Part shown: piece by piece, positions 2,001 through 59,591 of the stretch
Numbering within the stretch: position 1 is the first letter of the stretch
Layout of the letters: each line of letters begins with the position of its first letter
Assembly: GCF_000374025.1 (NCBI RefSeq)
Contig: NZ_KB893173.1
Location: forward strand, 1-64,000
Direction of reading: 5' to 3'
Source of the DNA: Spirosoma panaciterrae DSM 21099
Lineage (GTDB): Bacteria; Bacteroidota; Bacteroidia; Cytophagales; Spirosomataceae
Length of the DNA: 64,000 nucleotides
Position numbers and translations under genes: made by a program
The notes under the pieces: model-generated
The model's database searches: none
What the model saw: only the letters and a program-made list of their open reading frames with translations
Told to the model about the DNA's origin: nothing

Positions 2001-2100
2001 AAAGAGTGAAAGAGTGAATGAGTGAAAGAGCGAAAGAGTGGCTGACGCGAAAACTGTTCGCTCTTTCACTCTTTCGCTCTTTCGCTTTATCACTCTTTAA
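2001..2100 (-). repeat. octamer-repeat hairpin in the tyrS leader
   Basis: The plus strand at 2001-2040 is five tandem 8-mers of the type GAGTGAAA/GAGCGAAA. The stretch 2059-2098 is the reverse complement of a near-identical 5-unit array, so the two 40-nt arms can pair along most of their length, with wobbles where T and C differ. The element starts 8 nt upstream of the tyrS ATG and fills the leader between the -7 box and the start codon. It belongs to the same structural class as the elements at 41480, 42581, 43751 and 59520. Confidence 0.85.
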
Positions 2101-2106
2101 GAATCG

Positions 2107-2114
2107 CAAAGTTA
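2107..2114 (-). promoter_or_regulatory. tyrS promoter -7 box
   Basis: Minus strand TAACTTTG matches TAnnTTTG. It lies 114 nt upstream of the tyrS ATG, between the queA stop (2120) and the octamer hairpin. No clear -33 TTG is visible, so confidence is moderate. If used, the transcript would start near 2100 and the whole hairpin would be in the 5' leader. Confidence 0.5.
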
Positions 2115-2119
2115 ATTTT

Positions 2120-3343
2120 TTATGGTAAAAGCAGCGATGAATCACCGTAACTCAGAAATCGATAGTCGTTTTGCAGCGCTTCGTTGTAAACCTTCTTCCA
2201 GTCATCACCGATTAGGGCAGCAATGAGCAGAATGAGTGTCGAACCAGGTTGATGAAAGTTCGTAATAATCCCTTTGCACAGTTTAAGTTTATAACCAGGT
2301 GTGATGTAAATACCTGTGTGGGCCACGAGTGATTCCTGGTTTCTTTCAAGCATATACTGCCATACAGCCGTTAACGATGCCTCTACCGACGGCTGATCTG
2401 ATGCTGGGAGTTGATACGCATACTGCTGATCCAGAAAGAACGGTTCCGACTCCTGATGAATCAACCTGGCCCCCATCCAGTACAAACTTTCCAGCGCCCG
2501 CATTGAGGTGGTACCTACAGGAATAATCGTTTCCAGATGTTGAAGCAGCGTTTGCAGGTTTTGCCGGGTATACACAACCTGCTCAGTGTGCATATGATGC
2601 TGCCGGACATCCTCTGTTTTGATCGGCTGAAAAGTGCCTGCTCCTACATGCAGGGCTAGATAATCATGATCGATTCCCTGCTTAAGCAGATTATCAAATA
2701 CAGCAGCCGTAAAATGCAGCCCGGCTGTTGGCGCAGCTACCGCTCCTTCCTGTTTTGAATAAACCGTTTGGTAGGTATCTCGATCGGCCTCTGTGGGGTC
2801 ACGTTTCAGGTAGGGTGGTAGCGGAATTTCTCCAGCGTTCTGTATGACCTGGGCAAATGTCAGGTCAGCCGGTTGCCAGCTTAATCTGACCAATGACTGG
2901 TCGTAGTCGTACCAGGAAACTGACATGTCGATACCCTGTTGTTCCCCTTTTCCGGGCAGTTGCAAAACCAACGTTTCGTCCCGCTTCCAGCGTTTACGAT
3001 TGCCGATCATCCCCTGCCAGATTGCCGATCCGGTCATTTCCATTGACTGGCTAATGGGTAAATCGCCAGGAAATGGGCTTAAAAGAAACAACTCGATTAC
3101 TGAGCCGGTCGGTTTTGTAAAATACAATCGGGCCGGAATAACTTTGGTATTATTGAAAACCAGAAAGCTTCCCTTTGGCAACAATGCAGGTAAGTTGGCA
3201 AAGGTCTCATGACTTATTTGCCCTTTTCGGTAAACGAGAAGTTTTGAGGCATCGCGCTGTGCCAATGGAAACCGAGCAATTCGCTCATCGGGCAGATCAT
3301 ACTGGAATTGGCTCAACAGCCATTCATTCGATTCAGTCATCAT
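2120..3343 (-). CDS. queA: S-adenosylmethionine:tRNA ribosyltransferase-isomerase
   Basis: QueA transfers the ribosyl part of SAM onto 7-aminomethyl-7-deazaguanine in tRNA, giving epoxyqueuosine. The 407-residue product has recognisable QueA stretches: YDLPDERIA near the N-terminus, VFNNTKVIPARL (about residues 59-70), GAVAAPTAGLHFT and HVGAGTFQPI in the middle, and NFHQPGSTLI near the C-terminus. It is somewhat longer than the roughly 345 residues of E. coli QueA. Two ATGs in a row (3341-3343, 3338-3340) make the start uncertain by one codon. The start overlaps the stop of the upstream membrane-protein gene by 11 nt, suggesting translational coupling. No other queuosine gene is in the window. 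Confidence 0.95.
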   Translation of the reverse strand: MMTESNEWLLSQFQYDLPDERIARFPLAQRDASKLLVYRKGQISHETFANLPALLPKGSFLVFNNTKVIPARLYFTKPTGSVIELFLLSPFPGDLPISQSMEMTGSAIWQGMIGNRKRWKRDETLVLQLPGKGEQQGIDMSVSWYDYDQSLVRLSWQPADLTFAQVIQNAGEIPLPPYLKRDPTEADRDTYQTVYSKQEGAVAAPTAGLHFTAAVFDNLLKQGIDHDYLALHVGAGTFQPIKTEDVRQHHMHTEQVVYTRQNLQTLLQHLETIIPVGTTSMRALESLYWMGARLIHQESEPFFLDQQYAYQLPASDQPSVEASLTAVWQYMLERNQESLVAHTGIYITPGYKLKLCKGIITNFHQPGSTLILLIAALIGDDWKKVYNEALQNDYRFLSYGDSSLLLP

Positions 3344-3839
3344 TGCCGGGTTTCATGAACAAACGCACGGGTAATCCTGCCAGTACAGCAATCAAAATAA
3401 CTGTGCTGAGGGGTAGCAACCAGGCATAGTCGAACGGTTGCAGGCTCCGGTCAGCGCGGTTTACCAGCGACAGAACAAACAAACCCATCGCCAGGATTGT
3501 ATTAATGGCAGCGATCAGCGCAAAAAACCAGTTGGTAAAAATCTCGTTAAGCAACGGACGGTGACTTGCCCATACGCCTGCGGGCACAGGAATCTGAGCA
3601 GTGGGCACGCGTAGAAACAGTTTTGAAATGGCTCTTAAAACCGTATTGGCAATAAGAAAGATGGCGACCGAAAGGTAGAAGATCGTTTCTCGATTTATGG
3701 TCTGAATGGGCTGTTTGAGGTCATCGAATCGGACCGCTACTTCTTCAGGATACGAGATATAACTGGCAAATAATGAACCGACAAATCCGATTATAGACAG
3801 AATGCGCCACGTTCGGACAAAAAAAGTACCTGCTTTCAT
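3333..3839 (-). CDS. small integral membrane protein, unknown function
   Basis: A 168-residue protein with about four hydrophobic segments (roughly residues 8-28, 55-75, 102-125 and 138-158) and a C-terminal basic patch. I do not recognise a family. The ATG at 3839 is chosen because the longer ORF would start inside an octamer-repeat element. It overlaps queA by 11 nt and is probably co-transcribed with it. A -7 box TACCTTTG lies at 3916-3923, so this gene is the likely first gene of a two-gene unit. Confidence 0.75.
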   Translation of the reverse strand: MKAGTFFVRTWRILSIIGFVGSLFASYISYPEEVAVRFDDLKQPIQTINRETIFYLSVAIFLIANTVLRAISKLFLRVPTAQIPVPAGVWASHRPLLNEIFTNWFFALIAAINTILAMGLFVLSLVNRADRSLQPFDYAWLLPLSTVILIAVLAGLPVRLFMKPGNDD

Positions 3840-3842
3840 GTA

Positions 3843-3870
3843 AAAGAGTGAAAGAGCGATAGAGCGAAAG
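3843..3870 (-). repeat. single-arm octamer repeat upstream of the membrane gene
   Basis: The plus strand reads three tandem 8-mers (GAGTGAAA, GAGCGATA, GAGCGAAA), the same unit type as the left arm of the element at 2001-2100. No complementary arm follows. It begins 4 nt upstream of the ATG at 3839, the same position relative to a start codon as the complete hairpins. It may be a decayed or half element. Confidence 0.65.
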
Positions 3871-3915
3871 GACAACTAACCCAACCTCTTTAATCGACTC
3901 GTTAAAATCAGGGGG

Positions 3916-3923
3916 CAAAGGTA
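3916..3923 (-). promoter_or_regulatory. -7 box for the membrane gene-queA unit
   Basis: Minus strand TACCTTTG followed by CC, an exact TAnnTTTG match, 77 nt upstream of the ATG at 3839. No TTG is seen at the expected -33 distance. The leader would contain the single-arm octamer repeat. Confidence 0.55.
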
Positions 3924-4080
3924 CGGCTGGAATGGGTGAAATCCGTTAGTTTCGCCCACTCGATTCGTAGAACTATCTTCGGATGCTGGTAGCAGTCAAC
4001 CCATTTATTCCCTGGCAAATCCTTCAGACTCGCCAATGTCCGCTCATTTGCTCATGCATATTTTCACGCTTTAATCACTG

Positions 4081-4632
4081 ATGAAGATTTACACAAAAAC
4101 GGGAGACAAAGGCCAGACCGGACTAATTGGAGGCCGCCGGGTCAGTAAGGCTGATTTACGGATTGACACCTATGGAACCATCGATGAACTGAACGCCTGG
4201 CTGGGTCTGGTTCGCGATCAGCCTGTGAATGAGAGTCGAAAAGACATCTTGAAGGACATACAGGATCGGTTATTTACGATGGGGGCTGAACTGGCTACCG
4301 ATCCCGAAAAGGCCTCCAAACGACCTATACCTAGTATAACTGCTGACGATATTCAGGTGCTTGAACTAGCGATGGACAATATGGATGCCGAACTACCGGA
4401 ATTGCGTGCCTTTATTCTGCCGGGTGGTCATCAGGCCGTTTCGTTCTGTCATCTGGCCCGAACCGTTTGCCGGCGGGCCGAACGACTGGTCATTACCCTG
4501 CACGAACAATCGCCGGTAGACGAACGGGTGCTCCAGTATATCAATCGATTATCTGATTATTTATTTGTTCTGGGCCGGAAAATGGCACAGGAATTGAGTT
4601 CCGAAGAGGTTATCTGGAAGCCAAAAGTTTAA
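4081..4632 (+). CDS. cob(I)yrinic acid a,c-diamide adenosyltransferase, PduO type
   Basis: Transfers the adenosyl group of ATP to the cobalt of reduced corrinoid, making adenosylcobalamin. The 183-residue protein starts with the PduO signature KIYTKTGDKGQTGL, which binds ATP, followed by GGRRVSKAD and the DELNAWLG helix. Near the C-terminus are CRRAERLV (about residues 139-146) and INRLSDYLFVLGR. Length and motif order fit the single-domain trimeric family. No other cobalamin gene is nearby, so it probably serves salvage or a distant pathway. It runs in the same direction as ilvE, 114 nt upstream of it, but ilvE has its own -7 box. Confidence 0.95.
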   Translation: MKIYTKTGDKGQTGLIGGRRVSKADLRIDTYGTIDELNAWLGLVRDQPVNESRKDILKDIQDRLFTMGAELATDPEKASKRPIPSITADDIQVLELAMDNMDAELPELRAFILPGGHQAVSFCHLARTVCRRAERLVITLHEQSPVDERVLQYINRLSDYLFVLGRKMAQELSSEEVIWKPKV

Positions 4633-4661
4633 CTTTTTCATTCGATGAAAAAAAAGTTGTC

Positions 4662-4700
4662 TTGACAACTAAATTTAGTCGATCTTATTTTTTAGCTTTG
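4662..4700 (+). promoter_or_regulatory. ilvE promoter candidate
   Basis: TAGCTTTG at 4693-4700 matches TAnnTTTG and is followed by CC, 46 nt upstream of the ilvE ATG. A TTGACA lies at 4662-4667, but the 25-nt gap is longer than the 17 nt of the rRNA promoters, so it may not be the true -33 box. Confidence 0.5.
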
Positions 4701-4746
4701 CCGAAGCCTGATCTTCAGCAGGCTAACTCATTAACCACAAGCTGTT

Positions 4747-5817
4747 ATGACGACGGACGTATTGCAAATTGAATTGCGGAAAGCGGAAAGCTCCCGCCTT
4801 CAGGAGGTAGATTTTAACCATCTGCCTTTCGGAAAACATTTTTCGGACCACATGTTCGTGGCCGATTTCGTCAATGGTGAATGGCAGAACCAGATGATTG
4901 TGCCATTCGACAATTTCACGCTAAGCCCTGCTCTGTCGTCACTACATTATGGTCAGTCGATTTTTGAAGGTCTGAAAGCATTTAAAAATGAAGCTGGCGA
5001 GGTGTTGATGTTTCGGCCACACGCCAACTTTGAGCGGATGAACGAATCGGCTCGTCGGATGTGCATGGCTACGCTGACCGAAGAGGTGTTTATGGGTGGT
5101 CTGGAAGCGCTGCTGCGGATCGATGCAGGCTGGGTGCCGAACACGCCCGATAGCTCGCTGTATATTCGGCCGTTCATGTTTGCCACTGATACCTACCTGG
5201 GCGTGGCTCCATCAAAAACCTATCGATTCTGCATTTTCACGGGTCCTGTAGGGGCTTATTATACCAATCCTCCCAAACTGAAAGTGGAAACCGAATACAT
5301 TCGTTCGGCCCCGGGTGGAGTTGGTTATGCCAAATGCGCTGGCAACTACGCTGGTTCGATGTACCCAACCATGCTGGCTCAACAGCAGGGTTACGATCAG
5401 TTGATCTGGACCGATGCCCGCGAACACAAATACATTGAAGAATCGGGTACGATGAACATTATGTTTGTGATCGACGGGAAACTCGTTACCCCTGCCACAT
5501 CCGACTCAATTCTGAAAGGCGTTACCCGCGATACCATCATCCAGATTGCCCGCAGTTGGGATGTACCTGTTGAAGAACGTCGGGTATCGATTGAAGAAAT
5601 AATCAGTGGCATTGAAACCGGGCGATTGACCGAAGCATTTGGTGCGGGGACGGCCGTAGTCGTATCGCCTTACTCGCTCATCGGCTACAATGGCAAAGAT
5701 TATATGCTACCGGAATTCGCGCCAGAAAATTCGTTTGCCGTTCGGGTCAAAAATTACCTGACCGATTTACGGACGGGTAAGATTACCGATCAGTTCGGAT
5801 GGGTATACAAAGTATAA
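4747..5817 (+). CDS. ilvE: branched-chain amino acid aminotransferase
   Basis: A fold-type IV PLP enzyme that transaminates leucine, isoleucine and valine with 2-oxoglutarate. It has 356 residues, the length of the class II (eukaryote-like) BCAT group. Visible features are the HYGQSIFEGLKAF stretch (67-79), FRPHANFERMN (89-99), the PLP lysine in GYAKCAGNYAGS (Lys196) and the phosphate-binding ESGTMN region further on. It stands alone, with no other ilv or leu gene nearby. It has its own promoter candidate and is followed 15 nt later by a strong terminator. Confidence 0.96.
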   Translation: MTTDVLQIELRKAESSRLQEVDFNHLPFGKHFSDHMFVADFVNGEWQNQMIVPFDNFTLSPALSSLHYGQSIFEGLKAFKNEAGEVLMFRPHANFERMNESARRMCMATLTEEVFMGGLEALLRIDAGWVPNTPDSSLYIRPFMFATDTYLGVAPSKTYRFCIFTGPVGAYYTNPPKLKVETEYIRSAPGGVGYAKCAGNYAGSMYPTMLAQQQGYDQLIWTDAREHKYIEESGTMNIMFVIDGKLVTPATSDSILKGVTRDTIIQIARSWDVPVEERRVSIEEIISGIETGRLTEAFGAGTAVVVSPYSLIGYNGKDYMLPEFAPENSFAVRVKNYLTDLRTGKITDQFGWVYKV

Positions 5818-5832
5818 TTCGTTATTACCTCG

Positions 5833-5878
5833 ATAACTAAAAATACCCCGGTCGGCTGGCCGGGGTATTTTTAGTTAT
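5833..5878. terminator. strong terminator after ilvE
   Basis: Perfect 19-bp inverted repeat (5833-5851 and 5860-5878) with an 8-nt loop. The arms end in A/T runs, so the hairpin can act in both directions. It starts 15 nt after the ilvE stop. Confidence 0.85.
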
Positions 5879-6228
5879 ACCCCTCAACCAGTTGTCGAAT
5901 CGTAGCAAGGAAGTTCACAAAAATCGAAATTAACTAAGATTTAATTGACCTTAAGTACCCAAAGTAGTTATTGAATCAATCAATCTTCACTGCCTAATTA
6001 TCTGCATTTTTTACAACTATCATGAACTCCGCTCCCTCGCTTCTATCACGCCTTGCCGGGGCTACTGGTACCAGTGATCTCAAGGAATGTTCCGTCACCT
6101 TCGACTGGTTTCCTGCGGACGCATATTGTATGTATGTCTCATGAAGGGTAGTTTCGATGTACTACTTCATTTTCGGGATACCACACCAACCCATGTACTT
6201 CCCTGACGTTACGTAAATCGATTTTCGT
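5879..6228. other. 350-nt intergenic region, one 40-codon ORF
   Basis: No clear promoter or RNA gene is visible. A plus-strand ORF at 6022-6144 (ATG to TGA, 40 residues, starting MNSAPSLLSRLAG) is too short and featureless to call a gene. It could equally be chance or the remnant of a lost gene. Confidence 0.4.
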
Positions 6229-8238
6229 ATGAGAGCCATTTGGGTACTGTTTTTCACACTTTACAGCCTTCAGTCGGTTGCGCAGTCGCCCCGACCCCTC
6301 CGACGCTATTTTGGTATGCATTTCGATTTCCACGCTACGGAAAACGATACCACCATTGGCAGGAACCTCTCCGAGAAATCGCTTGACTCGCTTCTGACGG
6401 CCATTAAGCCCGATTTTATCCAGGTTGACTGCAAAGGTCATCCAGGTATCAGCAGCTACCCCTCAAAGGTACCTACGGCTACATCGGCTCGCCACATTAC
6501 GGGAGATCCACTTGCCTTTTACCGAACCGTGACCCGCAAACATGGTGTGGATTTATATCTGCATTATTCGGGTGTATTTGATGTTGCGGCTATCGAGAAG
6601 CACCCAAACTGGGCTGTGGTGAAAGCTGATGGCTCTATCGACAAATCGAAAACTTCGGTTCATGGCCCGTATGCCGATTCGCTCCTGATTCCTCAACTGA
6701 ACGAGCTGGCCAGCTACGGGGCCGATGGTGTTTGGGTCGATGGCGAATGCTGGGCTACCGTCCTTGATTACTCACCGACGGCACTTCAGCGTTTCCGTGA
6801 AGAAACCGGAATTACTACCGTCCCCCGTTCCAGCAAAGACCCTGGTTATGAAGCCTTTCGAGAGTTTGCGCGTCGTTCGTTCGTGAAGTATCTGGGTCGA
6901 TATATAGATAACGTCCATCAGAAACATCCCACATTCCGCATTGCCTCCAATTGGGCTTATTCATCCATGATGCCCGAGCCCATCACTACGAACGTCAATT
7001 TTCTTTCGGGCGACCTGACCCCGGGAAACAGCGTTAATTCGGCAGCGCTGGAAGGACGGATTCTGGCAGCCCAGAGCCAACTCTATAAAAAGCCCTGGGA
7101 TATTATGTCGTGGAGCTTCTGGTACAGTTTTACCCCCAATCGACAGGGAGACCAGAAAACGGCTGTCCACCTGATGCAGGATGCGGCTCAGATTCTTTCG
7201 CTGGGTGGCGGATTTCAGGCCTATTACCAACAAAGCAATACTGGCGCTATCCCCCTGCGTTCCTTACCCGTCATGGCCGAACTTAGCCGTTTCGTTCGAG
7301 CCCGACAACCGTTTTGCGAGGGGTCTACGCCCATTCCTCAGGTGGCAGTTGTCTATGCGAACACGACTGTCCGGAACTATAATCAGTCCCTTTTCGGCAA
7401 TGGCCAGACACAGCGCATCAATGGTGTGTTGACCGCCCTGCTCGATGCCCAGTTTCCTGTTGAAGTTCTGTCGGAGCAGCATTTGCAGGGGCGTATGAGC
7501 CAGTATCCGCTCATTGTGGTGTCCCAGCAGGATTCACTTAACCCAGCTTTTCGACGGGCCTTGCTCGACTATACCCAGCAAGGGGGCCATTTGCTTATTG
7601 TAGGCGCCCGCAACACCCAACAGTTTGCCAACGAACTGGGTGTAACGCCAGGAGCCATTCAAACGTCGGGCCCGCCTAAAACCATTTTACTGAACGGTAA
7701 GACTCTGATGCTCAGTGGCCCTTTCCTACCCATTCGGCCCATAAACAAAACGGCTCAACCGATCGGTCGATTTCTGGCCTCAGAAGCCAACGAACTGGTT
7801 GGTGGTGTAGTCGCATCTGAAACCCCGTATGGAAAAGGAAAGCTTACAGCGATCTATGCTGACGTAAGTGCCGATTATCGCATTCATCAGTCGCCTGGAC
7901 TGCGCGATTTTATAGCCTCTCTGGCCAAACCTCTCCTACCTAATCCGCTCGTCGAGGTGAGTGGCTCCCATCTTGTCCATGTCGTTCTGGGACAACAACG
8001 CAATCGGCTCACCGTAAACCTGATCAATACCGGGGGCCGCCATGCCGATCCGCAGGTATTCACCTACGACGAGGTGCCTCCCCTCACCAACCTCACTGTA
8101 CGTATACGCACCGATCACAAACCCAGACGAATTATACAACAACCTGAAAATCGGCAATTAGCCGTTCAGTATGCCAATGGTATCGCTACCGTGACTGTTC
8201 CGCAACTAACCATTCATTCGGTGCTGGTTGTAGATTAA
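6229..8238 (+). CDS. secreted glycoside hydrolase-like protein (TIM barrel plus GATase-like domain)
   Basis: The 669-residue protein has a signal peptide (about residues 1-19, cut after VAQ). Residues 25-370 look like the (beta/alpha)8 barrel of alpha-L-fucosidase and alpha-amylase-like hydrolases: RYFGMHFDFH (27-35), a KPDFIQVDCKGH strand and DGVWVDGECW (167-175), whose acidic residues are nucleophile candidates. Residues 370-480 resemble the GATase-like trimerisation domain of GH42 beta-galactosidases, with the strands PQVAVVYAN and YPLIVVSQQD. A beta-rich C-terminal part follows. It probably degrades plant or microbial glycans in the periplasm. I cannot fix the GH family or the substrate. 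No SusC/D pair is adjacent. Confidence 0.7.
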   Translation: MRAIWVLFFTLYSLQSVAQSPRPLRRYFGMHFDFHATENDTTIGRNLSEKSLDSLLTAIKPDFIQVDCKGHPGISSYPSKVPTATSARHITGDPLAFYRTVTRKHGVDLYLHYSGVFDVAAIEKHPNWAVVKADGSIDKSKTSVHGPYADSLLIPQLNELASYGADGVWVDGECWATVLDYSPTALQRFREETGITTVPRSSKDPGYEAFREFARRSFVKYLGRYIDNVHQKHPTFRIASNWAYSSMMPEPITTNVNFLSGDLTPGNSVNSAALEGRILAAQSQLYKKPWDIMSWSFWYSFTPNRQGDQKTAVHLMQDAAQILSLGGGFQAYYQQSNTGAIPLRSLPVMAELSRFVRARQPFCEGSTPIPQVAVVYANTTVRNYNQSLFGNGQTQRINGVLTALLDAQFPVEVLSEQHLQGRMSQYPLIVVSQQDSLNPAFRRALLDYTQQGGHLLIVGARNTQQFANELGVTPGAIQTSGPPKTILLNGKTLMLSGPFLPIRPINKTAQPIGRFLASEANELVGGVVASETPYGKGKLTAIYADVSADYRIHQSPGLRDFIASLAKPLLPNPLVEVSGSHLVHVVLGQQRNRLTVNLINTGGRHADPQVFTYDEVPPLTNLTVRIRTDHKPRRIIQQPENRQLAVQYANGIATVTVPQLTIHSVLVVD

Positions 8239-8429
8239 TACTTAATGAACAGTCCCATCGGAATACGGCAACTTTATACCTTCTCTATCACGATCAATAG
8301 TCTCAGAACATAGCTCTTTCTGGCAAGAAATTTAAATTAATAGCTATTTAATTGAATTTTTTAAATACAAGTAATCATTTGTATAATTTAGCCACCTGAA
8401 AATTTATCTACATCCAAATGTATATTCGT

Positions 8430-40783: not shown

Positions 40784-41476
40784 ATGCCAGACTCTGATAA
40801 ATCCATTGGGCGTAAAATTCTGAGTTTCTTCATTAAAGAAGAAGAACCGGGGGTAGCAACGGGCTCCACACCGGCTACTAGCCCCGCTTCACCCCGGCCA
40901 GCTCCTACCCAGTCGGCTCCAGCAACCCCAACGCCAGAACCAGTAGCAACAGGCTCTATCGACTCAAAGTTTGCCGAGCACTTTGCAACCGTACTGGCGC
41001 AGAACAATCCGCCCGGCCCCGACTATTTTGAGTTTCGGGAAGCTTTACGCAGCCTGTCGAACCTGGGATTACCCGAAGATAAGCAGTATCAGGCGGCCTG
41101 GGCCAGCTTTAAGGCAATGGGAGGAAGTACCGATATGGCCACTTTGACCAATACGGCAAATGGTTATATTGCAGCACTCAGCAAAGATCGGGATGCCTTT
41201 GGTAAAAGTGTGGAAGCAGCCCTGGCCGAACGTGTTGGTGGATTGCAAAACGAGCAAAAACGACTGCAGACGGAAAACGAGTCGCTGGCTAAACAATTGA
41301 TCGAGATTCAGAAACAGATTGACGCTAATACGGCCCGACTGACCAGTATCAGTGGAGAAATTACCGAGCAGGGAGGCAAAATCACACAGAATAAACAGAA
41401 TTACGAAACCACGTTTGCCCACTTTGTTGATCAGATTAAAGGCGATATCGCCAAAATGACACAGTATTTAAAATAA
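40784..41476 (+). CDS. coiled-coil protein, first gene of an uncharacterised cassette
   Basis: A 230-residue soluble protein. A short basic N-terminus (KSIGRKILSFF) is followed by a Pro/Ala/Thr-rich linker (about residues 20-58). A compact helical domain (about 59-145, with FAEHFATVLAQNNPPGPDYFEF) and a long coiled coil (about 150-230, QNEQKRLQTENESLAKQL) complete it. No known family is recognised. It begins a set of four co-directional genes (to 44347) and is separated from the next by an imperfect hairpin of the octamer class. It may act as an adaptor between the membrane proteins and cytoplasm. Confidence 0.75.
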   Translation: MPDSDKSIGRKILSFFIKEEEPGVATGSTPATSPASPRPAPTQSAPATPTPEPVATGSIDSKFAEHFATVLAQNNPPGPDYFEFREALRSLSNLGLPEDKQYQAAWASFKAMGGSTDMATLTNTANGYIAALSKDRDAFGKSVEAALAERVGGLQNEQKRLQTENESLAKQLIEIQKQIDANTARLTSISGEITEQGGKITQNKQNYETTFAHFVDQIKGDIAKMTQYLK

Positions 41477-41479: not shown

Positions 41480-41550
41480 ATGATGTCGGATGTATGGCGT
41501 AGGCAAAACACCCTATCCCAATACATCCTCCATTATACATCTTACATCAT
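41480..41550. repeat. imperfect octamer-class hairpin between cassette genes 1 and 2
   Basis: The left arm (about 41480-41504) reads ATGATGTCGGATGTATGG; the right arm (about 41511-41550) is the complement of a longer version with one extra 15-nt unit. Pairing is strong at the base (ATGATGT..GATGTAT) and partial above. It starts 4 nt after one stop and ends 11 nt before the next ATG (41562). Confidence 0.6.
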
Positions 41551-42580: not shown

Positions 42581-42686
42581 AATTTTGAATGAGTGAATGA
42601 TAGAATGTCCCGATACAGCACATGGCCTCTTCTTCCATTCACTCATTCTTCCATTCACTCATTCTATCATTCAATCAGTCAAAATT
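42581..42686. repeat. octamer-repeat hairpin between cassette genes 2 and 3
   Basis: Arms 42581-42607 and 42660-42686 pair at 25 of 27 positions. The units are 8-mers of the type GAATGANT. Two further copies of GAATGAGT-like units (complement strand, 42634-42659) sit in the loop. It fills the gap between the stop at 42575 and the ATG at 42696. Confidence 0.85.
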
Positions 42687-42695: not shown

Positions 42696-43751
42696 ATGCA
42701 ACGTTTAACCGTAGCCGGTCGGCTGCTTATTACGGTCTTGATTTTGGCCGCCATCTTTTTCGCTTTCCGTTACTTTGGTGGCAACGATGCCCTGAAAAAG
42801 CTTCAGTCGAAAGACAAAGACAAGGAATATACGGAGTCGCAGACCATGCCCCGTGCCGACGACAAAACGGCCGAAGAGGCTATCGACGAGTCGAGTGCTT
42901 CCTCATCCGGTTCATCGGATGAAGCGAGCAGTAGCGCTCAGCCTCAAAAGGATTTTTCGTATACCGCACCTGAGCCTCAAAATGGTGTTCTGAAAGGGGT
43001 GGTTGAACTGGGAGCCAGTGGATTCAACTCGTTCGTCGTCCGGATCGACGATCAGAAACGCTGGAAACTTGAAAAGGCTGAGTTTGGCAATAGCCTCGTA
43101 CTGGAAAACATGGCTACTGACAATGACGTGCGGACCGGCCTGAAAAGTTATATCGGCAAAATGCTGGACTTTGGGGTTGGTGGCCGTAATATTCATTTTG
43201 TGGTAAGCTCAGGGGCTGTTAAAGCCGAAGGCACACAGAAGATCATTAAGGTGCTGAAATCCCTGAATTACTTCGTCAATACGGTAACTCCCGAACAGGA
43301 AGGAAGTCTGGCCCTGCGCGCCGTACTGCCCGAATCGTACGAAGGCAACTCGTTTGTTACCGACATTGGCTCCGGCAATACGAAAATTTCGTGGAAAGAT
43401 GGAGGCTCCATCAAGGCTCTGGAAACATACGGTTCAAAATACTACAGCGAAGGCACGAGTGATGCCACCGTGTACGATGAAGTAAAGGCAAAAGCCAAAC
43501 AGGTTCCATCCGACCACCGTCAAACCTGCTTTATCATCGGTGGGGTTCCTTTCGAATTGGCTAAATCAGTGCGCAAAGGCAAAGAACGCTATACCGTGCT
43601 GGATGCACCAGCCGCTTATAAACTGGAAAGTGCCAAATCGAAAGCTGGCCTTAACGTGTACAAAGCCATTGCCGACGCCACCGGCTGCAACCAGTTCGTT
43701 TTCGACTGGGATGCTAATTTCACCATCGGCTATCTGTTGACTCTTAAATAA
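42696..43751 (+). CDS. membrane-anchored ASKHA-fold (actin/Ppx-like) protein
   Basis: A 351-residue product from the ATG at 42696. One TM helix (about residues 8-26) is followed by a Ser/Glu-rich low-complexity linker (38-95) and a domain at about 98-350. The domain shows the ASKHA pattern: phosphate-1-like VVELGASGFNSFVV (102-115), a Ppx-like VVSSGAVKAEG (169-179), phosphate-2-like DIGSGNTKISW (223-233) and adenosine-like CFIIGGVPFE (278-287). The usual first Asp is Glu104. It could bind ATP or polyphosphate, or be a filament-forming or pseudo-enzyme. It is the most informative member of the cassette. Confidence 0.75.
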   Translation: MQRLTVAGRLLITVLILAAIFFAFRYFGGNDALKKLQSKDKDKEYTESQTMPRADDKTAEEAIDESSASSSGSSDEASSSAQPQKDFSYTAPEPQNGVLKGVVELGASGFNSFVVRIDDQKRWKLEKAEFGNSLVLENMATDNDVRTGLKSYIGKMLDFGVGGRNIHFVVSSGAVKAEGTQKIIKVLKSLNYFVNTVTPEQEGSLALRAVLPESYEGNSFVTDIGSGNTKISWKDGGSIKALETYGSKYYSEGTSDATVYDEVKAKAKQVPSDHRQTCFIIGGVPFELAKSVRKGKERYTVLDAPAAYKLESAKSKAGLNVYKAIADATGCNQFVFDWDANFTIGYLLTLK

Positions 43752-43834
43752 TGATTGAGTGATCGAATGACTGAATGATTGAATAGGAGATGAGTCCTCT
43801 ATTCAATCATTCAGTCATTCAATCACTCAATCAT
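43751..43834. repeat. octamer-repeat hairpin between cassette genes 3 and 4
   Basis: 36-nt arms (43751-43786 and 43799-43834) pair at 35 of 36 positions, with a 12-nt loop. The units are 8-mers GATTGART/GACTGAAT. The left arm begins at the last base of the stop codon, and the right arm ends 9 nt before the ATG at 43844. Confidence 0.92.
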
Positions 43835-43843
43835 TTCCTTGCC

Positions 43844-44347
43844 ATGACCCTTCGTGATGTATTTCAGGCGATTTCGGGCCAGCCTGCTTTGTTATTTGTG
43901 CTCCTGATGGCTGTTCCCACAGGGGCTTTTTTGGTGAATTTGTGGTCGGGTAGCACAGCCGAGGAAATTATTAAGTGGAAGTATGCTTATGCTGTACTTG
44001 TGTACCTGGCCTGCATTCCAGGCGTATTTGCCGTAACGTTGAATATCTACCTGTTTCTGTTCGAGCGGCAAAGTGTATGGGATATGAACCTGGCCCTTCA
44101 GATCCTGCCCATACTGACCATGATTGCCACGCTCATGCTCATCCGCCGAAAAATCCCCTTTGCCTATGTCCCAGGCTTCGGCAAACTGTCGGGGTTCCTG
44201 ACGTTGATTGCCGCCATTATCGGGATTATGTGGTTCATCGACCGAACACGTATTTACGCAGTCACCTATATCCCGTTTACCTATATTGCCGTTGGATTCA
44301 TTGCGCTTCTGGTCATTATCCGCTTTGCCTGGAGCCGCATTTTTTAA
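43844..44347 (+). CDS. five-TM membrane protein, last gene of the cassette
   Basis: A 167-residue product from the ATG at 43844, with about five hydrophobic helices (residues 12-33, 46-72, 82-100, 113-131 and 138-160). Short charged loops (RRKIPF, DRTR) separate some of them. No family is recognised. It probably acts at the inner membrane with the products of the preceding three genes. It is convergent with the EamA gene, and no terminator is visible in the 52-nt gap. Confidence 0.75.
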   Translation: MTLRDVFQAISGQPALLFVLLMAVPTGAFLVNLWSGSTAEEIIKWKYAYAVLVYLACIPGVFAVTLNIYLFLFERQSVWDMNLALQILPILTMIATLMLIRRKIPFAYVPGFGKLSGFLTLIAAIIGIMWFIDRTRIYAVTYIPFTYIAVGFIALLVIIRFAWSRIF

Positions 44348-52651: not shown

Positions 52652-52724
52652 CTATTGTATAAGTCCCGATATGGTAATCCAAAACCCGAGAATAGAGTAT
52701 AGAACCTAACTATTCATAGGGAAC

Positions 52725-52817: not shown

Positions 52818-52899
52818 AGCTGTTGCATGATCCAATTGTTTACTAACCCCAAAAACTTAGCATTCGCTCATTCAATTCTTTCTTATCTATCTGAATACT

Positions 52900-54582: not shown

Positions 54583-54704
54583 GATAACCAGCGCATTAGT
54601 CCATAAAACAGAAGCATTTCGACAACCAGGCTACCCATTACGATAGCGTAGAGCTGGGGCCAGGAACGAGCAAAAGGGGGTAGATCAGATGGGTTACGGG
54701 TCAT
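54579..54704 (-). CDS. 41-residue single-TM protein, partner of the sodium symporter
   Basis: ATG at 54704 to TGA at 54579, overlapping the symporter ATG as ATGA. A hydrophilic start (MTRNPSDLPPFARSW) leads into one TM helix (about residues 17-37) and a short RWLS end. The tight coupling and the TM pattern suggest a small accessory subunit, as seen with other SSS carriers. It is below the length cut-off of many gene finders. Confidence 0.75.
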   Translation of the reverse strand: MTRNPSDLPPFARSWPQLYAIVMGSLVVEMLLFYGLMRWLS

Positions 54705-54831
54705 GAATGCATGGGTTGTCGAGTCTATAACGGCGAAATTAGCAGAAATAGATGTATCGACTTCGATTAACGCAAAGGAATGGCTTATTTCTCCTTATCC
54801 TGTACAAACGAAATGCCAGATTCCTCTCGGC

Positions 54832-56028
54832 CTACTCACGCCCGATCGAAAGGTTATAACTTAAATAGGGCAACATTCGGAATGGCAGCTCTTTATATTT
54901 CAGCCCATCTCTGAAAATCTGGCTATAGAACCCCAGATCGAAGGCATGCCGATGGCGATCGATCCGCAACGCAAATGATAAAGAAACCCGCTCCCCAAAA
55001 TCGTTCGGATAATAGGAATAGTCCCCTAAATTAACCCGATTGTCACTAAGCACAGTCAGACTTGGCGATACTTTCTGCATCAGGCCCATAGTTATGTACA
55101 GTTGATTTTCGATGGGCGTATCCAGATAGTAAGGATACGACATTGGGTTGGCGTAATAGTATCGTCGTTTACCACGTTCAACAAACCCAAATCCTGCCGT
55201 CACGTTGCGCTGGGCACTCCCAAATGTAGCCAATGCATTGAACGTCAGAGGCCCCCTTGTATAGTAACCTAACTTACTTTTATCCTGATACATGACATTC
55301 AGGCCCATCCGAACCTTATTGCCTAACGGCACACTGAGTTTAGTGTATAACCGGGAAGTGGTTGGCAGGAAGCCCTCGTAGAAAAAAAGATCATCTGAAT
55401 CCAGGTCCACCGAAGGTATTGGTGTGACAAAACTTGCTCCTATACTCCAGAACCGGGTAATCCCATAATCAAATGCATTATATAACCAGGTGTTGCGGTA
55501 ATAAAATCGACCTTTTTCAGCATTAATCGCCGTAGGGTTGAGTAACATAAACGGAGAAAACCGATTCACAAAACCATCTGGATTCGAGCGGCTGGTTTGG
55601 CTCATCTCATTCCATACCGTATCGACCCGAACGAGTAACTCTGGCTCAAAGTAGGTTAACTGACCGTTCGGCTTTCGGACCGTAATCATGGTTTCATTCT
55701 GCTTGACAAAGGTGCCTGGCAGGCGGGTGCCATCCCGTAGCAGAAATACGGCCGAAGCGATTCGTTCATGCATTTCAGCCTGCTCTTCCTTCGGGCGTTC
55801 TGCCAGTATTTTCACGACCTGATCGGCCTCTACATAAGACAGATCGCCCCCACGTACCCGAACGGTAATCAAGGAACTGTCCTGTCGAACAATTTGTCCA
55901 CGAACAACTGAACCATCCCGCATGAGTAGGTAAGAATGTTTTCGGAACGTATCTTCAGGCGTTACTTTTAGGAATTGTGCCTGCACTATAAATGGACACA
56001 GGCATAGCAGAAATAGAACTGTTTTCAC
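54832..56028 (-). CDS. secreted protein with two Sm-like repeats and a putative beta-barrel
   Basis: A 398-residue product starting at a GTG (56028), with a signal peptide of about 17 residues. Residues 30-75 and 90-135 are tandem copies of one pattern: LLMRDGSVVRGQIVRQDSS and FLLRDGTRLPGTFVKQNET, each followed by a strand with VR and a GxLxYxE motif. This resembles Sm-like or SH3-like small beta domains. The remainder (150-398) has barrel-like strands with aromatics. Function unknown, likely envelope-located. Confidence 0.7.
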   Translation of the reverse strand: MKTVLFLLCLCPFIVQAQFLKVTPEDTFRKHSYLLMRDGSVVRGQIVRQDSSLITVRVRGGDLSYVEADQVVKILAERPKEEQAEMHERIASAVFLLRDGTRLPGTFVKQNETMITVRKPNGQLTYFEPELLVRVDTVWNEMSQTSRSNPDGFVNRFSPFMLLNPTAINAEKGRFYYRNTWLYNAFDYGITRFWSIGASFVTPIPSVDLDSDDLFFYEGFLPTTSRLYTKLSVPLGNKVRMGLNVMYQDKSKLGYYTRGPLTFNALATFGSAQRNVTAGFGFVERGKRRYYYANPMSYPYYLDTPIENQLYITMGLMQKVSPSLTVLSDNRVNLGDYSYYPNDFGERVSLSFALRIDRHRHAFDLGFYSQIFRDGLKYKELPFRMLPYLSYNLSIGRE

Positions 56029-56072
56029 AGCAGTAGACGTTAAGGTTGAAGAATTGGCGTTGATATTTTCTT

Positions 56073-57275
56073 ATGCAAACGGTTACACACCGACAATTAT
56101 TTTTTCAGCATATAGCTCAGACCTCCGATTTTCCGTTAGGGTTGGAAATCGACCGGGCCGAAGGCATTTATTTATATGAAACCAGCGGCAAACGCTATAT
56201 CGACCTCATTTCAGGCATTGGGGTGAGCAACGTAGGGCATCGGCATCCGCGCGTATTGGAAGCCATCCATCAGCAGTTGGATAAGTACATGCACCTGATG
56301 GTATACGGTGAATATATTCAAACGTCGCAGACGCAGTTGGCTCAGGCTTTAAGCCAAACCTTGCCACCGAGTCTGAATAACGTATATTTCACCAACTCAG
56401 GAACCGAAGCTGTTGAAGGAGCTATGAAACTGGCGAAGCGATATACGGGCCGTTCTGAACTCATCAGTTGCTTCAATGCCTACCACGGCTCAACCCAGGG
56501 TGCTCTTTCCCTTTCGGGCGACGAAAATTTCAAACGTAATTTTCGCCCACTCCTACCCGATGTTCGGCACATCCGCCACGGCAATCCGACCGATCTTGAG
56601 CAAATTACCCATCGAACAGCGGCTGTAATAATCGAAGTAGTTGCGGGCGAAGCAGGTGTTCGTGTGCCGGAAGCAGCCTATTTTCAGGCGCTTCGGCAGC
56701 GTTGTACGGAAATGGGAGCCTTGCTTATTTTTGATGAGATTCAGACCGGCTACGGACGCATAGGCACTTTTTGGGCATTTGAGGGCGTTTCGGTTGTTCC
56801 CGATATTCTGCTATGTGCCAAAGGTATGGGAGGAGGTATGCCTATCGGGGCATTCATCAGCTCCGATGAATTGATGAGTGTGTTTAAAAACAATCCGATT
56901 CTGGGCCATATCACCACCTTTGGTGGCCACCCGGTTTCGTGTGCCGCTTCATTAGCCACCTTGCAGGTTATACAGGAGCAGAAGTTACACGAACAGGCAG
57001 AGGCCAAAGGACAACTATTCAGACAGTTGCTGAGCCATTCGTCTATACGGGAAATACGCGGTAAAGGCCTGATGCTGGCTGTTGAATTCGATTCGTTTGA
57101 CGTGTTAAAACCCATTATCGATCGTGCCATCGACAACAGTCAGAAAGGGCTGGGGGTTATTACCGACTGGTTTTTATTTTGTAACAATTCCATGCGGATA
57201 GCCCCCCCGCTCATCATTACGGAAGCCCAGATTCAGGAAGCGTGTGGAGTAATTCTGGAAGCGATTCATGCTTAG
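56073..57275 (+). CDS. class III aminotransferase (acetylornithine/ornithine aminotransferase-like)
   Basis: A fold-type I PLP enzyme of 400 residues. Visible are the SGIGVSNVGHRHP block (47-59), YFTNSGTEAVEGAMKLAKRY (105-124), the aromatic stacking YHGSTQGALS, Asp221 in IFDEIQTGYGR and the PLP lysine Lys250 in LCAKGMGGGMPIGAF. Members transfer amino groups from omega positions of N-acetylornithine, ornithine, GABA or succinylornithine. No arginine gene is near, so the substrate is unresolved. It is divergent from the gene at 54832. Confidence 0.9.
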   Translation: MQTVTHRQLFFQHIAQTSDFPLGLEIDRAEGIYLYETSGKRYIDLISGIGVSNVGHRHPRVLEAIHQQLDKYMHLMVYGEYIQTSQTQLAQALSQTLPPSLNNVYFTNSGTEAVEGAMKLAKRYTGRSELISCFNAYHGSTQGALSLSGDENFKRNFRPLLPDVRHIRHGNPTDLEQITHRTAAVIIEVVAGEAGVRVPEAAYFQALRQRCTEMGALLIFDEIQTGYGRIGTFWAFEGVSVVPDILLCAKGMGGGMPIGAFISSDELMSVFKNNPILGHITTFGGHPVSCAASLATLQVIQEQKLHEQAEAKGQLFRQLLSHSSIREIRGKGLMLAVEFDSFDVLKPIIDRAIDNSQKGLGVITDWFLFCNNSMRIAPPLIITEAQIQEACGVILEAIHA

Positions 57276-57350
57276 TCATACGGGGTCATGAATGGCCATT
57301 TGCTCAAGCGGTTGCGAAGTACCCTGAAAACTATTCATGGCCCTGTATGA
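57276..57350. terminator. inverted repeat between convergent genes
   Basis: 18-nt arms (57276-57293 and 57333-57350) pair fully if two G-U wobbles are allowed, around a 39-nt loop. It begins directly after the aminotransferase stop codon and lies before the convergent gene at 57382. Possibly a terminator, but without a U-run. Confidence 0.45.
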
Positions 57351-57381
57351 TTAAAAAATGTCGCCACGCAAATGCCTTCGG

Positions 57382-58521
57382 TTAAAATGCTTCTCCCAGT
57401 TGAAAATATAAACCGTTCGATACACTTTGCCCAATACCCCAACCGTAATCGACACGAAGATTTAAGCGTTCTTTCTGATTCAGAGACAGTCGGAGCCCAC
57501 CGCCAAACGAGTATTTAAGTTCCTGAAAATTCAGTTCCCGCAGGTTATCCCCTACATTACCCACCCCAAAAAAACCGACCGCACCCAATCGCCAGAACAA
57601 CGGCACCCGATACTCGGCCTGAGCCACGATCTGGTCTTCGCTTCGATAGCGTCCATCATAAAAGCCCCGCATGCTGTTGGAACCCCCAAAGCTGGCCAGG
57701 CTTCGTAAGGGCGTCTTGCCCCCATTAAAAAAACCATAGGCCTGGATAGCCAGCACATGCTGTCGGTAAATCGGCAGAAACCGCCGAAAATCAACGACAT
57801 AGTTGGTATATCGAAAATCTGAGCCGAACATTGGGTTAAAATGATTGAAGTAAACTTGTAGAAACCCTCCCCGATCAGGGGCAAATGCGTTATTCCGCGA
57901 ATCGTACGTAAGACTTAGCCCTGCCCCGGAGATGTGATAGGGCTGGCGGCCAATCACCTGCAACTGGTCGAAAAGGCCGCCCGACTGATAATCTATATCC
58001 AGGAGTCGCTGGTATTCATAAACGAGTCCTGCGAAAAAACGCTCCTTTAGCTTCCGCTGAAAATGCAGATAAATATAGTATTGCTTGAAGGTATAGGGTT
58101 CCATATGCTCATCAGGCGCGTCCTTTCCAAGCCCCCAGAACCGATCGGGGAAATAGCTGTACGATAATTGATAATTTAGGATAATTCGTTCGCCCGGAAA
58201 ATAAGTTGTTCCATTCACAGCCGCAATAAATTGCTTGCGAAGGGAGTATAATGCCAGCGCCTGGGTGTTTGACGTACGAGTAAGGGTATCGTGCTTATTG
58301 AACCGAAACGTGAATGAGCCCGCCAGGCCAAAAGACCAGTCGGTTTCGATTGAACGGGCTACCAAAGGCAAAATCAGCGTATTTCGGGTACGAATTAGTT
58401 GACTTGGAATGGGTTCTCGAGGAACACGGATGCTATCGGGCTGGGCTCGAAGGGCTTGCCCCAGGCTCATTAATTGGCTGATTAACAGCAAAACCAACCT
58501 TTTATCAAGTAAAACCGACAC
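57382..58521 (-). CDS. Omp85-family outer membrane protein without POTRA domain
   Basis: A 379-residue product from a GTG start (58521), with a signal peptide of about 26 residues. The barrel sequence has the surface-antigen pattern of BamA/TamA proteins: GAGLSLTYDSRNNAFAPDRGGFLQVYF (about 200-226), ASFGGSNSMRGFYDGRYRSEDQIVAQAEYRVPLFWRLG and a C-terminal LRVDYGWG. No POTRA segment precedes it. It may insert in the outer membrane as an independent barrel. The paralogue with one POTRA is at 18196. Confidence 0.87.
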   Translation of the reverse strand: MSVLLDKRLVLLLISQLMSLGQALRAQPDSIRVPREPIPSQLIRTRNTLILPLVARSIETDWSFGLAGSFTFRFNKHDTLTRTSNTQALALYSLRKQFIAAVNGTTYFPGERIILNYQLSYSYFPDRFWGLGKDAPDEHMEPYTFKQYYIYLHFQRKLKERFFAGLVYEYQRLLDIDYQSGGLFDQLQVIGRQPYHISGAGLSLTYDSRNNAFAPDRGGFLQVYFNHFNPMFGSDFRYTNYVVDFRRFLPIYRQHVLAIQAYGFFNGGKTPLRSLASFGGSNSMRGFYDGRYRSEDQIVAQAEYRVPLFWRLGAVGFFGVGNVGDNLRELNFQELKYSFGGGLRLSLNQKERLNLRVDYGWGIGQSVSNGLYFQLGEAF

Positions 58522-58699
58522 TGTAATCGAATTAACCGTTAATTAAACTCGCATTAATTAAATTGCGGCAAAGTAATCCTAAAATTGTAAATTTCGTAGA
58601 TTTGGGCTTTTATTAACCGATACAGTCTGCGCCCAATCAACAGGGGGCAGCCGACGGGTTGGCATCAACTACGGAACCTCCGATTTGTAAACCACCGAT

Positions 58700-59515
58700 A
58701 TGAGCAAATTAAACTTACCGCCCTTTACGTTAGGCGAATCTATCACTCCAGAACAACGCCAGTTTTTTAACAAATATGGTGTCATTGTATTTCGTAACTT
58801 CATTGAACCCGAAACAGTTAAACTTTTTATCAGTGAAACGGAGCGGATCGAAAAACAATGGCTCGATGAAGGGCGTGATAAGGTAAACGGCGTTCCATTA
58901 AAATTTGGTAAGGATGAGGCTGGAAATTCCATGATTCAGCGGATGTGCTTCCTGTCGCAGCACAGTACAGCACTCCATGAATTTTTGCAGGACCCCCGCC
59001 TACAGGCTGTCGTAGACCTTCTACAACCTTACGAGGGGCGCATTGCTGAAATTGAAAAAGATGGCCTCATTCTGAACCACTACGTTCGTACTCCCAACAG
59101 CAAATTCTCGCAAATGGGCTGGCATACCGATAGCCCGCGCGACATTTTTCTGGGGCAACGCATTATGCCGATGCTCAACGTGGGCATTCACCTCAATTCG
59201 ACACCTTACGAAAGTGGTGGCCTTCGGGTGATTCCGGGTACGCATAAGCAGGGAATTCTAAAAATGCTCTTCCGCAAAAAATATTTTGTCGACAACGAGC
59301 CCGATAAGCACGAAGTTGGCTTCGACATCAATGCGGGCGACCTGTCGGTCCACGACGGACGGCTTTGGCACCGGGCGCAGCAGTCGCCTTACTTCGGTGA
59401 AGCCAGCCGTCGACGTGTCATGTATGTGCCGGTCGTAACTGGAAAGTACATGCCTAAAGATGAGAACAGCAAAACGCCGTTCTATCACCGTTTCATTTCC
59501 AAAGTCAATATTTAA
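58700..59515 (+). CDS. phytanoyl-CoA dioxygenase family protein
   Basis: A 271-residue non-haem Fe(II)/2-oxoglutarate oxygenase. The iron facial triad is visible as His142 and Asp144 (WHTD) and the distal His224 (LWHRAQ). The double-stranded beta-helix is marked by MLNVGIHLNSTPYESGGLRVIPGTH, and a conserved GRIAEIEKDGLILNHYVR precedes the HxD motif. Substrate unknown. It runs in the same direction as the SDR gene, from which it is separated by a 29-bp perfect hairpin. Confidence 0.9.
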   Translation: MSKLNLPPFTLGESITPEQRQFFNKYGVIVFRNFIEPETVKLFISETERIEKQWLDEGRDKVNGVPLKFGKDEAGNSMIQRMCFLSQHSTALHEFLQDPRLQAVVDLLQPYEGRIAEIEKDGLILNHYVRTPNSKFSQMGWHTDSPRDIFLGQRIMPMLNVGIHLNSTPYESGGLRVIPGTHKQGILKMLFRKKYFVDNEPDKHEVGFDINAGDLSVHDGRLWHRAQQSPYFGEASRRRVMYVPVVTGKYMPKDENSKTPFYHRFISKVNI

Positions 59516-59519
59516 GAAA

Positions 59520-59591
59520 GAAAAAGGAAGAAGGGAAAAAGGAGAAAGCCTTAGGTCGGTCACTTTCTCCTTTTTCCCTTCTTCCTTTTTC
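59520..59591. repeat. purine/pyrimidine octamer-class hairpin upstream of the SDR gene
   Basis: Perfect 29-bp stem: a pure purine arm (59520-59548, GAAAAAGGAAGAAGGGAA and onward) and its pyrimidine complement (59563-59591), 14-nt loop. The units have the period 8 of the other elements (GAAAAAGG, AAGAAGGG, AAAAAGGA). It starts 5 nt after one stop and ends 18 nt before the next ATG (59609). Confidence 0.92.

Follow-up and report, generated by a model that had tools for sequence, protein, structure and literature searches.

Transcribed intergenic hairpins that can affect messenger RNA (mRNA) processing or stability include the enterobacterial repetitive intergenic consensus (ERIC) elements and the NEMIS/Correia elements of Neisseria. 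The closest published parallel that we found to the hairpins described here is the P6b stem of the group I intron in the Nostoc trnL gene (tRNA-Leu UAA). This stem is built of degenerate 7-nt repeats of Class I (TDNGATT) or Class II (NNTGAGT), and Class II has given way to Class I several times independently with a similar secondary structure; the origin of the repeat classes is stated there to be unknown (PMC4476775). Here we analyze a 64,000-nt stretch of Spirosoma panaciterrae DSM 21099 (contig NZ_KB893173.1, positions 1 to 64,000; hereafter the window; source genome size 8,127,746 bp), in which five intergenic gaps hold hairpins, several of them with arms of degenerate tandem octamers, and follow these hairpins through related genomes.

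Other described elements share single traits with them. Repetitive extragenic palindromic (REP) sequences, their bacterial interspersed mosaic elements (BIMEs) and the CGTC-tagged REPs are short palindromes present in many copies, and CGTC repeats are also reported from Bacteroidetes (PMC3733652). Direct repeats of the heptamer TAACTGA are described from intergenic regions of five Bacteroidetes; in one genome they lie mostly near start codons, and they carry stops in all frames (PMC4679880). Template switching has been presented as a process for the origin and upkeep of hairpins in RNA genes that explains two-sided changes in one step (PMC8794818). Judged on titles and abstract openings, the literature yielded no description of the present hairpins. 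We find that they form a class defined by fold and place, which persists at several gaps and whose sequence is heritable yet replaceable.

Five hairpins in the window

A preliminary description of this stretch had reported five long inverted repeats between genes, and all are present at those places, four strong and one, at 41480-41550, weak. Stems were sought in ungapped and gapped passes with 10 dinucleotide shuffles of the window as control, and hairpins were scored +1/-1.5/-3; the gene caller, scores and periodicity cut-offs are our own and differ between analyses. The shuffled windows held no ungapped hairpin scoring at least 14, and the four strong stems exceed all shuffles; 41480-41550 was not picked up by the ungapped search. 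The features are as follows.

1995 to 2104, minus strand: queA-tyrS hairpin (2001-2100 in the preliminary description), arms 1995-2038 and 2061-2104, octamer dialect GAGYGAAA, 36 of 44 columns paired.
41480 to 41550, plus strand: A-B hairpin, imperfect, heptamer dialect ATGATGT/ACATCTT, outer arms 14 of 16 paired.
42581 to 42686, plus strand: B-C hairpin, octamer dialect GAATGANT, outer arms 25 of 27 paired, fold z -4.3; the ATG of gene C is at 42696.
43750 to 43835, plus strand: C-D hairpin, octamer dialect GAATGANT, 36 of 37 paired, fold z -11.3; the stop of gene C is at 43749-43751 and the ATG of gene D at 43844.
59520 to 59591, plus strand: PhyH-SDR hairpin, purine dialect, 29 of 29 paired, fold z -7.9.
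2040 to 2048, plus strand: one-sided copy of the loop core GGCTGACGC, read from sequence, inside the queA-tyrS loop region.
3843 to 3870, plus strand: single unpaired octamer array of the GAGYGAAA dialect in a divergent gap, 3 nt from the ATG (3837-3839) of a minus-strand gene.
2120 to 3343, minus strand: queA, named from its Pfam match.
1991 to 1993, minus strand: ATG of tyrS, named from its Pfam match.
40784 to 41476, plus strand: gene A, which with gene B (ATG 41562) flanks 41480..41550.
58700 to 59515, plus strand: PhyH-domain gene, which with the SDR gene (ATG 59609) flanks 59520..59591.

All of the stems sit between protein genes, none of them in a trnL group I intron, and the RNA fold z of their gaps is -3.9 at 41480 and -4.3 to -11.3 at the remaining four (-8.2 for queA-tyrS, on the transcribed strand). 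Their 5' edges lie at -2 to 5 nt relative to the stop of the preceding gene, except at queA-tyrS (15 nt, or 21 for the tighter core), and their 3' edges 1 to 17 nt before an ATG. The long loop of the B-C hairpin contains further pyrimidine units at about 42630-42659. At the gathering score, Rfam gave no match on any window stem; its sole match in the window was 16S ribosomal RNA, the 5' part of whose gene occupies 1-265 (minus strand) at the window edge. For one protein of this genome, the closest named relative is from Spirosoma sp. 48-14, at 93%.

The arms had been described as octameric throughout, which is clear in three of the five; 41480 is built of 7-mers and 59520 is a purine run, for which the gapped search gives a best period of 7 and a second analysis gives rows of period 7 and 8, both with indels. 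The single-arm copy at 3843-3870 is real, shows no fold (z 0.4) and lies within the same flanking context in two relatives.

A class of hairpins with many unit dialects

Beyond the window, 400 kb of the S. panaciterrae genome holds 52 hairpins scoring at least 17, and two shuffles of it peak at 15. A three-genome sample of 1.58 Mb, made up of 864 kb of S. panaciterrae and 400 kb and 320 kb of its relatives G001 and G021, contains 205 hairpins of all kinds with a score of at least 16, and in 54 of these the arms pass a strict test for tandem units (periodicity cut-off 0.5 with arm-shuffle p<=0.02), with periods of 8 (29), 7 (14), 9 (9), 10 (1) and 11 (1). Elsewhere the cut-off was p<=0.03 for named loci and the order-wide sample, p<=0.05 for gap-occupancy and U-tract counts and for the retention of S. 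panaciterrae hairpins in mapped gaps, 0.5 alone for gap-length classes, within-genome pairs, the loop core, adjacency, orthologous gaps and sister swaps, and 0.55 for the G>C, start-codon and stop counts (137 hairpins).

At least seven unit dialects, 7 to 10 nt long, can be told apart, of which the octamer is only one; the view of a pure octamer family was given up. The dialects include GAATGANT, GAGYGAAA, GGTTTACG-like 7-mers, AGTTATAA, AGTCGTC, purine 9-mers and GGGCATA-like 7-mers. When up to 3 mismatches are allowed, the octamer pattern has 364 matches in the S. panaciterrae genome against 1 for its reversed control; with up to 2, it occurs in all 36 genomes of the genus, with 2 to 328 matches each, where the reversed control is low in most, the exceptions being G027 (47 against 43) and G010 (39 against 18). 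With up to 1 mismatch, 66 of 291 genomes of the order carry it.

Outside the genus, stretches of about 20 kb from each of 36 genomes of the order revealed periodic hairpins in 2 of 9 genomes of the same family, 5 of 10 of family f12 and the single genome of f15, and in none of 16 genomes of ten other families, a sample that was not blind, as f1 and f12 genomes were partly picked for octamer matches, which also fixed the position of four f12 stretches; leaving those four aside, f12 gives 2 of 6. Among 33 named loci, 19 carry one or more periodic hairpins (loci of Spirosoma, a Spirosomataceae metagenome-assembled genome, Larkinella, Siphonobacter and Hymenobacter), and the 14 without include two Dyadobacter, Flectobacillus, Arcicella, Emticicia, Arsenicibacter and two Saprospiraceae loci, along with three Spirosoma loci and one from Hymenobacter.

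Several local groupings were seen along the way. Purine 9-mers and GGGCATA-like 7-mers dominate positions 119000-265000 of C1 in S. panaciterrae, where several loops have a AAGTTGGA-like sequence in common; despite this region, local spread of dialects to neighbours was rejected, the adjacency permutation being not significant (p 0.08-0.37). Non-periodic dispersed hairpins with TTTTGTCATSCYGACGAAGGAGSCATCTT-like arms lie at C1 (1-400000) 13349, 115810 and 213274 and at C2 243952, the last copy missing in both G001 and G021. Another non-periodic family (TCTGAACCGGGATTTATGGGATTTGACGG...) is found at C1 158357, 207685, 237814 and 267083; in two of these places it fills a convergent gap. Hairpins with GAACGCAGATTGTTATGATGATTATGATTTACACAGATC-like arms occur at C1 58088, 63717, 117269 and 295628 and at C2 284075, where six two-sided changes separate the copy from that of G001.

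Placement between stop and start codons

The 54 strict hairpins occupy 40 co-directional, 7 convergent and 7 divergent gaps, against base rates of 62, 13 and 25% among gaps of at least 80 nt (one-sided p 0.04 for the co-directional excess, p 0.025 for the divergent deficit), and only one of them has more than half of its length inside a called gene. The claim that every case is co-directional therefore describes the five window stems and not the class as a whole. Equal occurrence in convergent contexts had been named as evidence that the class has no meaning; convergent gaps do hold periodic hairpins at about their base rate, alongside the co-directional excess.

Under a looser test there are 50 periodic co-directional hairpins, 40 of them in gaps of at most 150 nt, where they start a median of 4 nt after the stop, end 6.5 nt before the start and occupy 89% of the gap; in the longer gaps of the other 10, neither side is clearly favoured. 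In co-directional gaps of 90-110 nt, 36 of 90 hold a hairpin scoring at least 14, with arm periodicity in 28 of these, and none of the 90 does after shuffling. Hairpins of this score were found in none of 62 co-directional gaps of 20-50 nt, and a hairpin was present in 1 of 28 divergent gaps of 20-130 nt.

The arms follow a common order. Octamer clusters are paired in 41 of 48 cases, with both arms matched in 33, all of which are purine-first and none pyrimidine-first, and G exceeds C in the 5' arm of 129 of the 137 periodic hairpins. These contain 353 start codons in their 5' arms and 47 in their 3' arms; a depletion of the 3' arm beyond composition was not seen, dinucleotide shuffles giving 46.5 there. 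The 5' arms are enriched in stops, at 387 against 334 in such shuffles. Loops of periodic hairpins have a median length of 21 nt.

The placement bears on whether these could be ordinary intrinsic terminators or attenuators with odd stems. The stem does stand directly after the stop, at an upstream distance of at most 16 nt in 44 of the 50 periodic co-directional hairpins, and some cases are convergent. However, at least 6 T within 12 nt at the 3' edge are present in only 10 of these 50 (22 of 77 other co-directional hairpins), and the next start lies within 16 nt in 34 of 50, compared with 13 of the 77 others, which sit by the stop and far from the start. Most short gaps would also leave little promoter room downstream of the stem, so that transcripts of the next gene would either cross the hairpin or start at a promoter farther upstream. 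With few U-tracts, and with stem feet adjoining the start codon, we rejected terminators as the principal account and consider them the least probable of the explanations weighed here.

Hairpins persist in orthologous gaps while their sequence changes

We compared the five window gaps with their orthologs, using 30 genus loci for each of the five, plus 32 named loci in the case of A-B, B-C and C-D, and counting distinct sequences. Loci came from 30 of the 36 genus genomes per search; L051 was left out as apparently the same organism as G021, and there is no row for loci in which a gene or the partner next to it could not be located. Only hairpins that scored at least 10 and above 20 shuffles of their own gap were counted.

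Across the five series, 122 of 171 distinct gaps contain a hairpin: 20/42 at A-B, 36/42 at B-C, 25/28 at C-D, 12/29 at queA-tyrS and 29/30 at PhyH-SDR. The hairpin-free exceptions at C-D and PhyH-SDR are all gaps of at most 59 nt, as are 4 of the 6 at B-C. The preliminary description had staked the class on stems recurring in orthologous gaps: they are kept at B-C, C-D and PhyH-SDR, and the A-B and queA-tyrS series settle the matter neither way. Its proposal that the fold or the pairing process is conserved, and not the sequence, agrees well with these series, as orthologous gaps often keep a hairpin while its arms change dialect. In mapped gaps, the periodic co-directional hairpins of S. panaciterrae are kept in 8 of 8 cases in G001 and 7 of 7 in G021.

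PhyH-SDR hairpins alone show several dialects among species. On a tree of the flanking genes, the 30 species require no fewer than 15 changes of the dialect label, with nine states set by hand (including 'non-periodic' and 'no gap') and branch support not inspected. Shuffled labels give a mean of 20.5 changes and a minimum of 17, which indicates that dialect is partly inherited.

As a separate observation, G001 and G021 carry a CRISPR-like array with the repeat ATTTCAATTCCAATCAGGTACGATTAAAAG at the place orthologous to about 35550 of the window, in which this repeat has no match with up to 3 mismatches.

Replacement of whole hairpins between sister species

G001 and G021, which are sisters on the PhyH-SDR flanking-gene tree, allow replacement to be followed over a short distance. 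Hairpins were called replaced at below 75% identity. The hairpin cut of 9 in the first mapping was weak, and the mapping was repeated against 50 shuffles. Mapping from G001 to G021 gave 37 comparisons (12 periodic hairpins the same and 5 replaced, 15 others the same and 5 replaced, none absent), with targets above the 50 shuffles in 17/17 periodic and 18/20 other cases. The reverse mapping gave 44, two N runs set aside (10 periodic the same and 9 replaced, 15 others the same and 8 replaced), with targets above shuffles in 18/19 and 21/23. Flanks of the five replaced periodic G001 hairpins are 92-100% identical.

Two window gaps illustrate such swaps. At PhyH-SDR, S. panaciterrae and G021 have a purine hairpin in common and G001 carries a AGTTATAA hairpin like that of G008. 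In the 60-nt windows that border this hairpin on its two sides, G001 and G021 are 95% and 100% identical; whole-region transfer was rejected as the cause, because both these windows and the tree of the flanks stay sister-like. At C-D, another octamer hairpin stands in place in G021. The swapped G001 hairpin matches only itself in G001 (9 of 9 candidates scored), and the best near-full-length relative of the swapped G021 hairpin in its own genome is 82% identical among the 40 of 63 candidates scored, with a 97% match over 34 nt at one place. Recent copy-paste within one genome was rejected, as neither swapped hairpin has a near-identical full-length copy and few alike pairs were sampled: 6 within-genome pairs at least 80% alike over at least 80% of their length among the 205 hairpins. 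With sister-like flanks and no near-identical full-length copy, these two swaps look limited to the gap, from a source not visible in the genome.

Some loops contain a conserved core. GCTGACGC, with at most 1 mismatch, is present in 16 of 123 periodic loops, 2 of 154 other hairpins and 1.3% of random segments, and the exact inner stem GGCTGACGC...GCGTCAGCC is found in 24 of the 36 genus genomes, in up to 27 copies, with reversed-control matches in two genomes. In 44 examples (24 from across the genomes, the other 20 from among the 27 of G011), outer stems of 2-47 bp in various dialects enclose the core, whose junction by eye is similar within a dialect. This core would suit a dispersed mobile palindrome family, like REPs or miniature inverted-repeat transposable elements, moved by a putative transposase that recognises core or fold, and a few copies do have common loops (C1 138715 and 163359, 95.5% identical). 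Yet the core sits in a minority of periodic loops, the outer parts are the variable ones, and both the scarcity of alike pairs and the absence of close relatives of the two swapped hairpins are at odds with dispersal, which we regard as improbable. A GC-rich word, CCGNNCGGGCGGCCCC or a near variant, was also seen nested in hairpins of the L055 and L078 B-C gaps, the L260 PhyH-SDR gap and G001 g1 247920; the word is present in 34 of 36 genus genomes.

Two-sided changes and the reading of the class

Pairing between the arms is maintained as their letters change. In periodic stems, comparison of S. panaciterrae with G001 or G021 gave 26 two-sided changes that keep Watson-Crick pairing, where about 4 are expected of arms that change independently, a roughly six-fold excess. 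Transversion-type double changes, which cannot pass through a G-U step, make up 52 of 93 typed changes; alignments below 60% identity are included in the 93, though neither in the 26 nor in the corresponding count for non-periodic hairpins given below, and both may be raised by alignments of replaced stems. Such changes fit the suggestion that one arm is copied from the other, and do not prove it. Among S. panaciterrae, G001 and G008, whose loop is not conserved, the C-D stem has 32 of 37 pairs invariant, 3 changed on both sides (equalled by 18 of 500 shuffles) and 2 broken in one species; of 22 flanking 60-nt windows compared between S. panaciterrae and G008, 19 show 67-85% identity.

The reading that we favour, which in our judgement falls just short of an even chance, is one of gap-bounded hairpin cassettes whose arms are kept complementary by copying and which probably serve as a structural spacer in mRNA. 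A fuller version, to which we give a somewhat smaller chance, sees interchangeable intercistronic hairpins in rival tandem-unit dialects, with whole cassettes exchanged between orthologous gaps, also across species, by gap-limited copying, such that presence is inherited and the letters are not.

A number of results weigh against this account. Non-periodic hairpins, some of which look like ordinary terminators, show an equally large excess of two-sided changes (56 against about 7 expected). Mismatches in periodic co-directional stems, read in transcript sense, comprise 30 G-U and 56 A-C (p 0.007), so that the asymmetry sought as support for RNA-level selection came out reversed and was dropped; the shortage of G-U arises mainly because the 3' arm avoids G (7 T-G against 26 C-A), which leaves room for other readings. 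The asymmetry in start codons between arms is due to base composition, convergent gaps, which contain no start codon, are also filled, and a convergent S. panaciterrae hairpin (C2 334799) is missing in G001. Part of the replaced stems are length or unit variants within one dialect and bring no new one, and the second and third 60-nt windows downstream of the PhyH-SDR swap show a lower identity of G001 to G021 (78 and 75%), a dip also present in S. panaciterrae (78 and 70%). Many hairpin-free gaps in the A-B and queA-tyrS series are 62-116 nt long, and therefore count against a strict requirement for a hairpin. Finally, TAnnTTTG, which we take to be the Bacteroidota -7 consensus, is found no more than 30 nt from the queA stop in 23 of 29 queA-tyrS gaps, against 2/42, 1/42, 1/28 and 1/30 in the other series; it follows the stop in 11 of 12 queA-tyrS gaps with a hairpin and 12 of 17 without, the window gap being 1994-2119. 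The motif is likely the tyrS promoter, in which case the queA-tyrS hairpin would be a leader.

Several of these results would be expected of neutral palindromes without function, in which slippage grows the units and template switching mirrors one flank onto the other until a stop or start is met. Tight edges on both sides, seen also in several convergent gaps, the lack of a G-U excess, the transversion-type double changes and the two ortholog series that often lack a hairpin all agree with that explanation, and a published precedent exists for template switching that creates and maintains stems (PMC8794818). It is harder to reconcile with the retention of a hairpin in 17/17 and 18/19 periodic comparisons between the sisters and in 29/30 PhyH-SDR gaps, since swaps would have to leave no empty gap; nor are common dialects, a repeated core junction and a purine-first order expected from independent local growth. 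We hold neutral palindromes to be an unlikely explanation, if a serious one.

A model for gap-bounded cassettes

In the cassette reading, an element typically begins a few nucleotides after the upstream stop, or inside it, with a purine- and G-rich arm of degenerate 7- to 10-nt units, turns in a loop that sometimes bears the core GGCTGACGC or its inner stem, and returns as a complementary arm poor in start codons that ends no more than about 16 nt before the next ATG. The arms would plausibly be kept complementary by template switching when the hairpin is replicated. Whole-hairpin swaps, which the preliminary description did not foresee, need a further process, and may well arise by repair or recombination confined to the gap. 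Cleavage of hairpins by SbcCD-like nucleases would be a natural trigger for such events.

A role in mRNA can be proposed more cautiously. The hairpin might act as a spacer or insulator that packs a gap of about 100 nt and brings stop and start close together; its 5' arm could offer stops to stray ribosomes, with few false starts in the 3' arm, and the stem might also be an RNase III-type processing site between cistrons. The sequence would then be free because only the fold matters. These bacteria rarely use Shine-Dalgarno sites, and if the hairpins do act in mRNA, they would provide a sequence-independent form of cistron spacing. Element finders that rely on sequence similarity would miss such a class.

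Comparison with known systems

ERIC and NEMIS/Correia elements are conserved sequence families, unlike the hairpins here. REPs are sorted by an unpaired end motif, GTAG or CGTC, together with sequence family, whereas here the outer stem is free and the conserved part, if any, lies inside (PMC3733652); by eye, the hairpins inspected showed no common foot tag. These hairpins lack the REP trait of a palindrome sequence common to the copies in a genome, given the few alike pairs and the differing dialects of orthologous gaps. The TAACTGA repeats are direct arrays of one exact heptamer, with one inverted case tabled, in contrast to the inverted pairs and many dialects seen here (PMC4679880). The template-switch model alone leaves the common dialects and the whole-hairpin swaps unexplained (PMC8794818), and the hairpins offer a test bed for template switching as a force that keeps stems paired.

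The Nostoc P6b stem resembles these hairpins in having pairing arms of degenerate tandem units, present here in 54 of 205 hairpins, and in the replacement of one repeat class by another at a single locus with the fold kept, as in the PhyH-SDR label changes and the sister swaps. It differs in being one intron locus with two classes and one direction of replacement, whereas here many intergenic gaps of Bacteroidota carry at least seven dialects of 7-10 nt, with a core in some stems. The Nostoc case leaves open what gives rise to interchangeable repeat stems and why one class supplants the other; with a similar pattern found at many gaps of one genome and in dozens of species, their origin, swap rate, donor and effect become testable.

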